Source: Mucilaginibacter sp. (GTDB taxonomy: Bacteria; Bacteroidota; Bacteroidia; Sphingobacteriales; Sphingobacteriaceae). From it: a stretch of DNA of 64,000 bases. Positions 4,928 through 41,457 of this stretch are shown piece by piece. The notes under the pieces were generated by a model. It made no database searches, was not told the DNA's origin, and worked only from the letters and a program-made list of their open reading frames with translations. The stretch's first letter is position 1; every line of letters begins with the position of its first letter. Made by a program: the position numbers and the translations under genes. The stretch lies in contig JAQBOH010000033.1 of the NCBI GenBank assembly GCA_028288125.1, forward strand, positions 1-64,000. The letters run 5' to 3'.

Positions 4928-4943
4928 GAGGCAGGCAATTATT

Positions 4944-5076
4944 GAGTTAGTGAATTGTTGATTTAGTGAATTAGTGAATTTAGTCGGAAAGTCCGGAAGA
5001 TGACTGCCTGGACATATATCTATGTAATCATAATTTTTATGCCCTGAGTTTTTTGTCTTTACTGACTTTTCCGACT
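4944..5076. repeat. degenerate short tandem arrays (TTAGTGAAT / AAAGTCCGG types)
   Basis: Repeats read directly between the cysteine desulfurase gene and glmM. Confidence 0.55.
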
Positions 5077-7149: not shown

Positions 7150-7190
7150 GCGGTAAATTTGAAAAACTCAGAAAATGACAGGGCAAAAGG

Positions 7191-7351
7191 GTGTCATGGT
7201 GAGCCCCGTCGAACCACGGCGCGCGGGGCTGACGGATGTCCATCGGAGAAATGGTGAGCTCCGTCGAACCATAATTTTCATGAGAGCGAAGCGAGGGTGC
7301 ATGATGTAAAGGCCTTTGCCCACTATGGTTTGACGGGGCTCACCATGACAC
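7191..7351. repeat. inverted-repeat intergenic element (26-bp arms GTGTCATGGTGAGCCCCGTCGAACCA plus an internal third copy)
   Basis: Arms 7191-7216 and 7326-7351 complementary with 1 mismatch; internal copy 7251-7272. Confidence 0.75.
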
Positions 7352-7397
7352 CTACGTTTTTTTCAGGAACAAACATGTGATGGATAGTGATATAGCG

Positions 7398-9270: not shown

Positions 9271-9363
9271 TAGATATTAAGCTTGAGGCATTAAGCGTTT
9301 GCTGTTGATTGAGGTATTTGTAGATTGGGCTTATTTTATAGTCAGCTGTAAATTTCCGAATGA

Positions 9364-9963
9364 CTAATGACCAATGACTACTGACGAAAAAACGCGGTGC
9401 AATTCCAATACCTGGGGAATCACCAATTGCATGTTATCGTTTTTAATGATATGGGCGGCCAGCGCGGTTTTCTGTTCTTCCGAAAATTGTTGGGCATTCC
9501 GGCTTTCCACTTCGGCGCGACTCAGTCCGTCCCTTTGCATTACACGTTTTATGCGATCTTCAAGCGGCGCTTGAACCATAACGGTATAGTCGCACAGTGT
9601 ATACGAATCACTTTCGAACAATAAAGCGGCTTCCTTTACAATATAAGGTGCATCTTTAATATTTGCCGCCCAGGCATCAAATGCCCCGAAGACGGCCGGG
9701 TGAACGAGCGCGTTTAACTCTTTTAGCTTAGCCTCGTTATTGAAAACAATGCCCGAAATGTATCTCCGGTTTAGCGCGCCATCTTCAAAATAAGCCTCAT
9801 TACCGAAAGCTGATTTAAGGCCCGCTATAAGCGCCGGGTCGGTCACCATTACTTTCTTTGCCTCATCGTCGGCATAAAAAACAGGCACGCCCAATATTTC
9901 AAATACCTTGCTGACGGTTGTTTTACCGCTACCCATATTGCCGGTTAAGCCTACTTTTAGCAT
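9364..9963 (-). CDS. coaE: dephospho-CoA kinase
   Basis: GLTGNMGSGKTTVSKVFEILGVPVFYADD. Confidence 0.95.
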   Translation of the reverse strand: MLKVGLTGNMGSGKTTVSKVFEILGVPVFYADDEAKKVMVTDPALIAGLKSAFGNEAYFEDGALNRRYISGIVFNNEAKLKELNALVHPAVFGAFDAWAANIKDAPYIVKEAALLFESDSYTLCDYTVMVQAPLEDRIKRVMQRDGLSRAEVESRNAQQFSEEQKTALAAHIIKNDNMQLVIPQVLELHRVFSSVVIGH

Positions 9964-10939: not shown

Positions 10940-11014
10940 AGGTGAAAGGTAAAAGGCTAAAGGTGAAAGGCAAGATCATAACACCCTTCACCCTTCACCT
11001 TTAGCCTTTTACCT
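10940..11014. repeat. inverted pair of degenerate AGGTGAA heptad arrays (hairpin)
   Basis: AGGTGAAAGGTAAAAGGCTAAAGGTGAAAGG...CCTTCACCCTTCACCTTTAGCCTTTTACCT. Confidence 0.85.
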
Positions 11015-11017
11015 CGT

Positions 11018-11341
11018 CTATTTCGTAACCGCCGGCGGCGTGTTCAGCGCCTTTGAGGCTTCTAAAGATATAGCCGACTTGTCAAACCTTATCTTGGCGC
11101 CACCTTCGGTTTCAACCAAAAAGGTGGTTTCAGCAACCTCTGATATTCTGCCATGAATGCCGGCGGTTGTTATCACTTTGTCGCCTTTTTTCAGCTCGGT
11201 AACATATTTCTTTTGGTCCTTTTGTTTTTTTACCTGCGGACGTATCATAAAAAAGTAAAAAACCACCGCGATCAATCCAAACATGATCAATTGCTGGGTG
11301 CCAAAACCTGTAGAGGCCTGTAATAAAATAGTTGTTATCAT
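11018..11341 (-). CDS. yajC: preprotein translocase subunit YajC
   Basis: FFMIRPQVKKQKDQKKYVTELKKGDKVITTAGIHG. Confidence 0.95.
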   Translation of the reverse strand: MITTILLQASTGFGTQQLIMFGLIAVVFYFFMIRPQVKKQKDQKKYVTELKKGDKVITTAGIHGRISEVAETTFLVETEGGAKIRFDKSAISLEASKALNTPPAVTK

Positions 11342-13948: not shown

Positions 13949-14091
13949 AGTCAGTAAAGTCCGGGAAAGACAGAAAAGTCCGAAGACGCATGTTTAAAGT
14001 TATAGTTTGTCGCCTTTGGTACTTCTTTGTACTTTTGATTTTTTCAGTTTAGAACTTCCCGGACTTTCGGACTTTGCTGACTTTCCGACTT
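13949..14091. repeat. inverted pair of degenerate AAAGTCCGG arrays
   Basis: AGTCAGTAAAGTCCGGGAAAGACAGAAAAGTCCGAAGAC ... CCCGGACTTTCGGACTTTGCTGACTTTCCGACTT. Confidence 0.8.
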
Positions 14092-19628: not shown

Positions 19629-19745
19629 CGGGTTAGATTCAAGAGCCAAGAAGCAAGAGCCAAGAAGCAAGAAATAAAAAGCAGGAAATTAACATATACA
19701 TAGATTTATCTTATTTATAGCTAAATAGCTTTCTTGTAAATCAAT

Positions 19746-22783: not shown

Positions 22784-23329
22784 TTACAGCCTTAAAAATT
22801 TATTTAATTCGGGTTCATTCAAATCTGCTTTATGATGCTCTATAAAGCTATCTAATCCACCAAACCATTCTAATACCCCCTGCTTGTTTAGCGAGGTTCC
22901 CTTTTCTGATAAATATGCAGAATAGGACGAATATTTATAATCCTCCATGTTGTTAACAAGTCCGGCAACAACGGGATTTTTATGGATATAAGTAATAATG
23001 CTTGTATAATAACTGTCCGAAACAATCTCAGACACTTTAAACCTGCCTTGAAATAAACTTCCTACCCTATGATATTTCTTGTTTATTGCTTTTGAATAAG
23101 AAATGAAGAAATTCTTTATCCCTTTTTCAAAAAGTGTTTCCTCATTTATTCTGATAAAAAAATGAAAGTGATTCGGCATTAAACAATGGGAATATGTGTC
23201 GCAATACGGTGATACATATTTTTTAAATTGACTCAGGAAATAATTGTAGTTGTCGTCTTCAAAGAAGATCAATTCTTTATTATTGCCTCTGTTGTAAAGA
23301 TGATAATAGCTATCAGAATAAACTTTCAT
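22784..23329 (-). mobile_element. REP-associated tyrosine transposase (IS200-like, Y1_Tnp)
   Basis: MKVYSDSYYHLYNRGNNKELIF...CLMPNHFHFFIRI (HUH), single domain, bracketed by palindromes. Confidence 0.88.
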
Positions 23330-26579: not shown

Positions 26580-27803
26580 ATGGACTCAACCACCTTACAA
26601 CCTCCAAAGCAAATCGTTCAAAAAACCGTTTTCGGAATACTGATGGCTATTAGCGTCGGGCATTTTCTAAACGATATGCTGCAGTCTATCATTCCGTCGG
26701 TATACCCTTTGCTGAAAAGGAATTTTCATTTAAACTTTACACAGATCGGGCTAATCACTTTTACTTTCCAGGTTACCTCGTCGCTGCTGCAGCCGTTTGT
26801 AGGGTTGTTTACCGATCGTAAACCGCGGCCATATTCCCTGGTGGCAGGCATGTCACTGTCGCTGGTTGGTGTGGTCATGCTGTCATTGGCGCCCAGCTTT
26901 ATTGGCGTACTTGGAGCGGTTGCCATAATGGGCATCGGTTCGTCCATTTTTCACCCCGAGTCGTCACGGCTCGCACGCCTGGCTTCCGGCGGAAAAAAGG
27001 GGCTTGCACAGTCTATCTTTCAGCTCGGCGGCAATACCGGCAGCGCGGTGGGGCCGTTGCTCGTAGCGCTTATCGTAGTGCCGAATGGGTTAAGGTACAT
27101 CATCTGGTTTATTTTGGCGGCCGTGCTCGGCATCATTATCCTGTCGAAAGTTGGTCAATGGTATAAAGATCATTTGAACAGCAAAGCTAAAAATCCCGTT
27201 AAGGATGAGCCGCACCTCAACCTGTCTAAAACAAAAATAGTCTGGTCGCTGGTTGTACTGCTGCTGCTCATATTCTCCAAGTTTTTTTACCTGGCTTGCA
27301 TGAACAACTACTTTACTTTTTTCCTTATCGGCAAGTTTCACCTTTCCATACAGCAATCGCAGCTATACCTGTTCGTATTCCTGGCTTCCATCGCGGCGGG
27401 TACACTCATCGGCGGCTATCTCGGCGATAAGTTCGGGCGTAAATATGTGATCTGGTTTTCCATATTGGGCGTAGCGCCGTTTACACTGATGCTTCCTTAT
27501 GCCGATCTTTTCTGGACGGTGGCCTTATCCGTGATCATCGGTATCATCCTTTCCTCGGCTTTTTCAGCTATTGTAGTATATGCCCAGGAACTGGTACCCG
27601 GCAAGGTCGGCACGGTGTCGGGCCTGTTTTTCGGGCTCGCTTTCGGCATGGGCGGCCTTGGTTCCGCACTGCTTGGCGTACTGGCCGATCATACCAGCAT
27701 TACCTACGTGTTTAAAGTTTGCGCCTTTCTTCCCCTTATTGGGATAGTAACAGGCTTTTTACCTGATATTGAAGGAAGGTTAAAGGCAAAAGGCAAAAGG
27801 TGA
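26580..27803 (+). CDS. MFS transporter, fosmidomycin-resistance type
   Basis: GHFLNDMLQSIIPSVYPLLKRNFHLNFTQIGLI; SSIFHPESSRLA. Confidence 0.88.
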   Translation: MDSTTLQPPKQIVQKTVFGILMAISVGHFLNDMLQSIIPSVYPLLKRNFHLNFTQIGLITFTFQVTSSLLQPFVGLFTDRKPRPYSLVAGMSLSLVGVVMLSLAPSFIGVLGAVAIMGIGSSIFHPESSRLARLASGGKKGLAQSIFQLGGNTGSAVGPLLVALIVVPNGLRYIIWFILAAVLGIIILSKVGQWYKDHLNSKAKNPVKDEPHLNLSKTKIVWSLVVLLLLIFSKFFYLACMNNYFTFFLIGKFHLSIQQSQLYLFVFLASIAAGTLIGGYLGDKFGRKYVIWFSILGVAPFTLMLPYADLFWTVALSVIIGIILSSAFSAIVVYAQELVPGKVGTVSGLFFGLAFGMGGLGSALLGVLADHTSITYVFKVCAFLPLIGIVTGFLPDIEGRLKAKGKR

Positions 27804-27845
27804 AAGGTGAAAGGTGAAGCCGTCTCCTTTGGAAACGGCCAGCGG

Positions 27846-32781: not shown

Positions 32782-32895
32782 ATGATTTACGCGGGTAAAG
32801 ATAGGTGAATAAGTTGATTAAGTGAATGGTTGATTGAGTTGGATTAAGTGATAAAAAACCGGCTCCCGCCAGGCTGCATAGTTGTTTTAAAAAAA

Positions 32896-34083: not shown

Positions 34084-34191
34084 CGAAAATTCTATTAAAT
34101 TTTGCGCTGCTAAGATAAGGGGAAAGTTGGAAAAGTCCTGTGTCTGAAAGTTTCCAGCAGAATTTTTACTTCCCGGACTTTACCGACTGCT

Positions 34192-34875
34192 TTAATCCCG
34201 CCATAAATACGGGAACAACAAAAGCGAGGTGGCAATAACAATGGCATTGATAGCCAGCAGCACGCCGAAATTACCGTAGCTGAAACTGCGGTCGATGCCA
34301 TCCATGGCGTTTTTGCTCAAGCGGATAAGCAGCAAAATAACGGGGATAATAACCGGGAAACTTAAAATAGCCATGAGCGTACCATTATTTCCGGCTTTTG
34401 AAGCAATGGCTGATATCATGGTGAAAACGGTGGAAAAGCTAAGGCTTCCTAACAGCACCGTTAAAAAATAAAAAAGCGGGTCGCCGATGGTATTCACAAA
34501 AAACACCCGGTAAGCCAATAAAGCCAGCAGGCTGAGCAGCGACATCAGCAATACGTTATAAATGGTTTTGGATAGGATAATTGCCTGCGGGCCGGCAATG
34601 GAATAATAATATAATAAGCGGCCTTTGCTCTCCTGCATAAAGCTTTTCGCTATCGCGTTAACCGAAGCAAACAGCATAATGATCCAAAACAAAACATTCC
34701 ATACAATAGGGTAACCACTGGTCCCCGTAAAACCTGGGTTTAAGTTAAAGGCGATATAGCAAATAAAAACGGTTGACACTACGTACAGCAGTACGCCGTT
34801 AAAGGCGTATTTAGAACGCCACTCCAATACAATTTCCTTTTTAAAAAGATCCCAGGTTTGGTTAACGAGCTGCAT
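34192..34875 (-). CDS. ccmB: heme exporter protein CcmB
   Basis: LFKKEIVLEWRSKYAFNGVLLYVVSTVFI. Confidence 0.88.
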   Translation of the reverse strand: MQLVNQTWDLFKKEIVLEWRSKYAFNGVLLYVVSTVFICYIAFNLNPGFTGTSGYPIVWNVLFWIIMLFASVNAIAKSFMQESKGRLLYYYSIAGPQAIILSKTIYNVLLMSLLSLLALLAYRVFFVNTIGDPLFYFLTVLLGSLSFSTVFTMISAIASKAGNNGTLMAILSFPVIIPVILLLIRLSKNAMDGIDRSFSYGNFGVLLAINAIVIATSLLLFPYLWRD

Positions 34876-34887
34876 TCAGCAAATGTA

Positions 34888-34966
34888 GTTCATTAGTTTA
34901 TTGGTTCAATGGCTCATTGGTGCATTAGTTCATTGGTGCATTGGTTTAATAGTTCATTGGCCTATT
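34888..34966. repeat. degenerate TTCATTGG octamer tandem array
   Basis: TTCATTAG..TTCAATGG CTCATTGG TGCATTAG TTCATTGG TGCATTGG...TTCATTGG. Confidence 0.8.
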
Positions 34967-38535: not shown

Positions 38536-38646
38536 GTACGTTAGTATAAGTTCCTTAATAAAAATAACCTCAACTACCTGTTTATTAACGGGTAATTAAA
38601 AGCTGAACATGAAAATTGAAGGTTTTGTTTTTATGAAACGGAGGAA

Positions 38647-38783
38647 AGAATCAAGAGTCAAGAACCAAGACTTAGTGCTTTATGATAATCGTTTCGTTCC
38701 GGCCTTATGCTTGTGGGCTGTACTTCTGGGCTCTTGTTTCTTGGTTCCTGGTTCCTGGTTCTTACTTCCTCGCTCCTGATTCT
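38647..38783. repeat. inverted pair of degenerate AGAAYCA heptad arrays
   Basis: AGAATCA AGAGTCA AGAACCA AGACTTA ... TGGTTCC TGGTTCC TGGTTCT...TGATTCT. Confidence 0.8.
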
Positions 38784-41206: not shown

Positions 41207-41403
41207 GCGGCAAAGATAGGTTTTTTGAATCCGAAAGTCCGGAAAGTCAAAAAAGTCGGTAAAGTCAGAAAGGATTAATGTGGAAGGAGTTTGAATGTGA
41301 GGTCCGAAGGTTTTGATCGCAGATTTCCGGTTCGATCATTAATTTTCAAATCGTTTAGTTTATATAATTGCTGTTTTATGGTGTATTTACTTTAGGTGTA
41401 TCT

Positions 41404-41457
41404 GTTGTATCTCTTGTATCCGTTGTATCTGTTGTATCTGTTGTATCTGTTGTATCA
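41404..41457. repeat. 9-bp tandem repeat (GTTGTATCT) x6
   Basis: GTTGTATCT CTTGTATCC GTTGTATCT GTTGTATCT GTTGTATCT GTTGTATCA. Confidence 0.93.

Follow-up and report, generated by a model that had tools for sequence, protein, structure and literature searches.

Between yajC (11018-11341, minus strand) and ybbR of a Mucilaginibacter metagenome assembly (G000; 3.42 Mb, 206 contigs), degenerate heptads form a hairpin (10940-11014) with a predicted RNA fold of -46.4 kcal/mol (z -8.6). The locus raises the question of what kind of element such a hairpin represents and how it relates to the further arrays in the window, i.e., the whole 64-kb stretch of DNA that was analysed. For comparison, a relative (G014) was used whose genes are 87% identical to those of G000. 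The hairpin and the other arrays exist at the positions at which an earlier note, made from the sequence alone, had reported them:

1742-1896: heptad hairpin, family GATDTGA (AGATTTG), arms 1743-1777 and 1860-1894, in the divergent spacer between the genes for fructose-bisphosphate aldolase and accD
4937-5075: mixed hairpin, AWTTAKTG units with AAAGTCVGD arms inside
9357-9388: array AATGACY (the GTCATTR family), at the coaE end
10940-11014: gene-less heptad hairpin, family AAAGGYD, best stem 10947-11014
13949-14091: heptad/nonad hairpin, AAAGTCVGD, in a divergent spacer; synteny breakpoint versus G014
19637-19683: single array, CAAGANB
27776-27823: single array, AAAGGYD, across the stop codon of the ORF at 26580-27803; synteny breakpoint versus G014
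32803-32855: single degenerate array, type GTTGATTRA / AGTGAATG
34118-34192: short hairpin, AAAGTCC-type arms
34888-34966: single long array, GTTCATTR, period 8
38646-38783: heptad hairpin, CAAGANB
41228-41275: single array, AAAGTCVGD

The single arrays of the earlier note do exist, but some of them are halves of a pair, as at 9357-9388, where the relative has the complete pair with both arms. Since the array at 27776-27823 crosses the stop of the MFS gene (26580-27803), as it likewise does in G014, it provides the C-terminus and stop of this gene. An Rfam search of the window matched only the tRNA. Another kind of array, with the period-9 unit ATACARSRG (TGTATCTGT), was observed at 41397-41456 in the window and at L032, L034, L046, L059, L068, L085 and others, roughly a dozen such loci being present within 868 kb; these arrays mostly have no inverted partner and their orientation is not fixed.

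The window arrays probably belong to a widespread class of hairpin elements with heptad arms, of which they would be gene-less representatives. The full element would consist of a wobble-heptad arm in G-rich orientation, a gene-holding loop and the inverted arm, with the loop gene coding for a four-helix bundle of about 120 aa, a member of the family (PF05635/TIGR02436) whose proteins are encoded in 23S rRNA intervening sequences (IVS). The gene-less form, located in spacers, would retain the arms around an unrelated loop.

Abundance and unit families of the arrays

Gene gaps in Mucilaginibacter, a soil bacterium, are filled by the hundred with short wobble-repeat hairpins. On 868 kb of G000, with genes called by our own ORF/hexamer caller, strict arrays of period 6-10 numbered 73 in 107.6 kb of spacers versus 0-1 in dinucleotide shuffles, i.e., a frequency well above chance. 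Their periods are 7 (n=40), 8 (n=15) and 9 (n=17), with almost none otherwise, and coding DNA, 7x larger than the spacers, contains 16 of them. AAAGG matches were the reason for including about 18 of the 59 contigs sampled, so that the array density is inflated, while polarity and qualitative results are unaffected. A search of the same 868 kb for long inverted repeats yielded 102 (1.3 expected), 37 of them with arms of period 7-9. By means of a unit dictionary, unit runs were found in 115/539 spacers of G000, 91/535 of G014 and 51/271 of 24 other Mucilaginibacter loci (1-2 after shuffling in each case) and, among the outgroups, in 9/267 spacers of Pedobacter and 0/144 of Sphingobacterium. Tandem, degenerate units of period 7 that are enriched in spacers, as in known degenerate heptad repeats, are thus present here, and periods 8 and 9 as well. 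No paper on such repeats in Mucilaginibacter was found in a limited literature search, which does not prove novelty.

The units belong to about 15 families of period 7, 8 or 9 that recur genome-wide and genus-wide, including AAAGSYD, AWTTAKTG, CAAGANB, GTCATTR, GTTCATTR, AAAGTCVGD and GATDTGA as well as YSRATTT, GTCSATR, AGRTTDG, AGTATCA, TTGTRDG and GTTGATTDR. Core positions of each family are about 90-100% fixed over many loci, and 1-3 positions, always the same ones, wobble; neutral decay of tandem repeats would distribute the variation evenly. The proposal of a different unit at each locus was not borne out, as AAAGGYD occurs at 10940 and 27778, AAAGTCVGD at 4981, 13949, 34118 and 41228, and CAAGANB at both 19637 and 38647. 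In whole-genome pattern counts, AAAGGYDAAAGGYDAAAGG was matched 75 times in G000 and occurred in 42 of the 61 Mucilaginibacter genomes, and its reversed control had zero matches in this genus. A sister family extends to other families of Bacteroidia, the unit vocabulary being common to several genera and families. Some heptad arrays are long and near-perfect (11-19 units) and have no partner (L036 3328-3430, L048 16942-17025, L079 14893-14999, G014:C25 about 109300-109450), pointing towards ongoing slippage expansion.

Arm order, insertion and family switching

Inverted pairs of the same family within a spacer have the G-orientation first in 79 cases and the reverse in none (unit dictionary), i.e., they are convergent and never divergent, as known from other heptad repeats. 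Family orientation determined by arm clustering, independently of the dictionary, gave 115:1. This order applies to tandem, divergent and convergent spacers alike, and among the matches listed for other genomes it is identical in all 18 close AAAGG pairs and 3 AATTAGTG pairs. Non-periodic hairpins have no comparable orientation bias (72:57), and general compositional skew of the spacers was rejected as a cause, array-free spacers showing little of it. In Bacteroidota, first arms mostly contain more G than C (106:9), but this strong tendency has exceptions (14:7 in gene-bearing elements), and the constancy of orientation per family is the firmer rule. Because a palindrome is identical on both strands, neither the direction of the genes nor the replication strand can account for the fixed arm order, which reflects either a 5'-to-3' process or the derivation of the arrays from oriented elements. 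Pairs in opposite orientation are of the same family in 79 cases and of mixed families in only 5, which indicates that the two arms arise or change jointly. The two arms of a locus resemble each other more than they resemble arms of their family at other loci (mean rank 0.35, p 7e-4). Period, degeneracy and inverted pairing are accordingly conserved features of one element class, as the earlier note had suggested.

Core-plus-wobble units in fixed orientation resemble recognition sites, and DNA-binding proteins requiring convergent orientation could bind the arrays multivalently, the link to an element being incidental. This is clearly improbable, since about 15 families that often switch per site would call for many proteins or a single very loose one. 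Selected regulatory or terminator hairpins working in RNA would be in line with the stable predicted folds and with the terminator-like hairpins that outgroups have at the same place of the yajC junction. Such a role is very improbable in view of the divergent spacers, where the hairpins are about as common and where promoters can fall between the arms (e.g., 13949-14091), of the median loop of 41 nt, and of the mismatches on the transcribed strand of tandem spacers, in which G.U is not in excess over A.C (58:58). Selection for RNA structure is not supported either, given the same ratio, and the strand symmetry of the mismatches makes the process appear to act at the DNA level. Intrinsic terminators were rejected, their combination of short loop, U-tract and depletion from divergent spacers not being found.

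A periodic hairpin with changing units is present at the yajC-ybbR junction in 19 of 25 Mucilaginibacter loci, and the outgroups have ordinary short, terminator-like hairpins or none at this position. Two junctions whose genes abut or overlap in outgroups (median gap 6 and 0 bp) often contain arrays of 60-180 bp in Mucilaginibacter; the arrays are therefore insertions. Gene-less forms span the spacer from stop codon to start codon, neither codon being destroyed. At one divergent junction, the hairpin is located downstream of the same promoter-like motif in most species read, with differing unit families. Seeding of the units by adjacent start or stop codons was rejected, as CDS ends match no better than those of other genes (except for 4/27 stop edges).

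Arrays are present in both G000 and G014 at 18 orthologous spacers, the family being kept at 10 and switched at 8. Wherever both hairpins are intact at a switched site, both arms have switched together, so that the anticipated turnover of units under a conserved structure was indeed observed. At 1742-1896, AAAGTCVGD units take the place of the inner part in G014. Most loops have remained homologous where the family is kept, unlike those at the 2 testable switched sites. Two synteny breakpoints of the window versus G014 fall in arrays. A mobile element with a body was rejected, since the loops of gene-less hairpins are mutually unrelated, and so was block copying between loci, as unit-shuffled arrays gave equal inter-locus matches and no copying could be detected.

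Alternatively, the arrays may be scars of DNA synthesis, with units added by slippage or 3'-end extension at a break or stalled fork within the spacer, inverted pairs generated by fold-back copying or rejoining, and any gene between them a mere passenger. The symmetric sense-strand mismatches, the closeness of arms at the same locus, the breakpoints inside arrays, the replacement of loops at both testable switched loci (mostly homologous at unswitched ones) and the slippage displayed by very long perfect arrays are all in favour of such scars. We nevertheless consider them rather unlikely to be the explanation, because neither the fixed cores and strict family orientation nor the vocabulary crossing genera and families and the gene association described below are predicted. 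Plain slippage with palindrome growth, which had been put forward earlier, is likewise not supported, as it predicts neither the fixed cores, nor the 79:0 orientation, nor a hairpin-borne gene. A version involving reverse transcriptase is further disfavoured, and tailing by this enzyme was rejected, since RVT_1 matches are absent from several array-rich complete genomes.

A four-helix-bundle gene between heptad arms

The 64-kb window contains no four-helix-bundle (PF05635/TIGR02436) gene. At the junction corresponding to 4928, two other Mucilaginibacter species (L127, L100) carry an ORF of 123 aa between arms of AWTTAKTG type, and five other species (L093, L095, L096, L102, L105) have a gene-less AWTTAKTG hairpin at this junction; in many outgroups the spacer comprises only a few bases. 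A Pedobacter locus (L117) also has an ORF there, with weaker arms (inverted-repeat test not significant, p 0.145). All three ORFs belong to PF05635 (23S_rRNA_IVP). Of 61 Mucilaginibacter genomes, 60 encode TIGR02436 proteins (3-8 copies as a rule), and gene-less pairs amount to tens per Mb. Within the genus, the link of gene and hairpin comprises the two hairpins read (L127, L100) and two coincidences of coordinates, i.e., a TIGR02436 gene (G004:C1:955213-955536) flanked by AAAGG arms at 955172 and 955571, and a gene (G041:C10:131799) starting 35 bp past an AAAGG arm at 131739. No decayed gene was seen in the loops of gene-less hairpins.

The association was assessed with tblastn relatives of the L127/L100-type protein on plasmids, which were selected regardless of their flanks and compared over 260 bp on each side. 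A significant inverted repeat surrounds the gene in 24 of 26 cases (p <= 0.01 versus shuffles); 21 of the 26 also pass a stricter periodicity threshold, with period 7 being best in nearly all, and the remaining three significant cases are at this threshold or have a non-periodic repeat. The two genes without a significant repeat are from Bernardetia (copy a) and Pseudanabaena. The same test was positive for 0/120 further genes located on three of the plasmids and for 4/686 genes in G000. The plasmid hosts belong to six phyla (Cyanobacteria, Bacteroidota, Chloroflexota, Spirochaetota, Bacillota, Pseudomonadota), and some arms are near Mucilaginibacter families (AAAGGTG-type in Treponema, AAAGTAA-type in Nostoc TCL26-01). 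The neighbours of the plasmid genes are unrelated (cas1/cas2, restriction-modification genes, others), as expected of inserted elements.

Three further observations concern these plasmid copies. In Nostoc TCL26-01 and Anabaena cylindrica (L263, L275), the element is placed between cas2 and cas1. Copies at L251, L254 and L274 are inside runs of DISARM, restriction and DNA-methylase genes. The copy of Nostoc UHCC 0870 (L266) is bounded by a perfect, non-periodic 40-bp inverted repeat.

The gene-bearing hairpins in several species and on plasmids suggest that the hairpins of the window are their gene-less relatives. Gene-less and gene-bearing forms would then represent one lineage, in which the four-helix-bundle protein may recognise the arms and aid their upkeep or spread in trans, and arm spread or renewal would be a process at the DNA level. 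Alternatively, the gene may be carried along as a passenger, either tolerating hairpins that were already there or being tolerated within them.

Relation to known repeats and intervening sequences

The organization resembles that of REPIN/RAYT systems in combining a low-copy gene with many gene-less inverted-pair elements of fixed orientation, but common ends are absent, the units are arrays and the protein family is unrelated; no shared conserved body or ends were found (loops unrelated, no block copying). The window does contain a RAYT-like gene (22784-23329, minus strand; PF01797; NF047646 with 61 bits, below the cut-off), which has no alignment in the otherwise syntenic G014. RAYT (REP-associated tyrosine transposase) relatives occur in 58 of 61 genomes, and their copy number correlates weakly with the AAAGG array count (rho 0.37, p 0.004, uncorrected for genome size). 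Mobilization of the arrays as REPIN-like elements by RAYT is still most improbable, considering that such genes are present in many array-free genomes and absent from some array-bearing ones, that the arrays have no conserved ends or loops, and that classical REP-like palindromes of other sequence (GTCATTGCGAGG...) are likelier partners. Recurrent, non-periodic REP-like long palindromes (GTCATTGCGAGG...CAATGAC and GGTGTCATGGTGAGC...) were observed at 7190-7352 in the window and at L086 6194-6284, L034 6584-6671 and L084 2844-2939; they are probable RAYT partners.

Degenerate spacer heptads (GGGAATC/GGGANTN) are known from Xanthomonas, with 70-75 convergent inverted pairs per genome and the G-strand corresponding to the sense strand after stops and to the antisense strand before starts (PMC4692102). 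Their orientation rule is the same as that of the Mucilaginibacter arrays. They differ in comprising one G-rich unit per genome, which was read as G-quadruplexes (PMC4692102), versus about 15 families here. Four G-tracts are not a general feature of the present arrays, as AWTTAKTG, CAAGANB and GTCATTR, like most families, have no G-tracts at all; quadruplexes were therefore rejected and cannot be the general reason for such repeats. No link to the S23p gene was seen in the Xanthomonas heptad paper (PMC4692102). Cyanobacterial STRR heptads include the classes in P6b of the Nostoc trnL intron (PMC4476775) and TAACTGA repeats (PMC4679880). Their units are likewise degenerate and of period 7, they pair into hairpins in P6b, and at one site a repeat class was exchanged for another (PMC4476775), but they are known as single families or from a single intron site, in contrast to the hairpin-borne gene and the genus-wide spacer population in Bacteroidota. 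The PF05635-type protein family is also present in the heptad-bearing genera Xanthomonas and Nostoc (tblastn in this study; PMC4990558).

The 23S rRNA IVS with an S23p/IVP ORF, e.g., of Coxiella burnetii, are of unexplained origin, a mobile element having been proposed long ago (PMC4990558). The S23p protein of X. campestris consists of four helices according to work cited in PMC4990558. An IVS is a hairpin of long terminal inverted repeats with an ORF of the PF05635 four-helix-bundle family in the loop (PMC4990558), and such an ORF within an inverted-repeat hairpin was found in L127, L100 and 24 of the 26 plasmid cases. Unlike IVS, which are located within 23S rRNA and cut out by RNase III (PMC4990558), every copy examined here resides in a spacer or between plasmid genes; moreover, the arms are wobble-heptad arrays and gene-less copies are far more numerous than the gene. 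As a tentative extension, one may speculate that a cross-phylum class of propagating wobble-heptad hairpins has the Avd-like IVP/S23p protein as its factor acting in trans, a class of which STRR, the Xanthomonas GGGAATC pairs, the Mucilaginibacter hairpins and the 23S IVS would all be members, full-length or gene-less.

For Mucilaginibacter, the arrays quickly rewrite spacers, occupy positions at which outgroups have terminator-like hairpins and occur at rearrangement breakpoints. The association of gene and inverted repeat on plasmids (24/26 versus 0/120) points towards a likely nucleic-acid partner for an orphan four-helix-bundle family and predicts where its binding site should be sought. 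Two old puzzles, the purpose of degenerate heptads and the origin of the 23S rRNA IVS with its protein, may thereby become one question.
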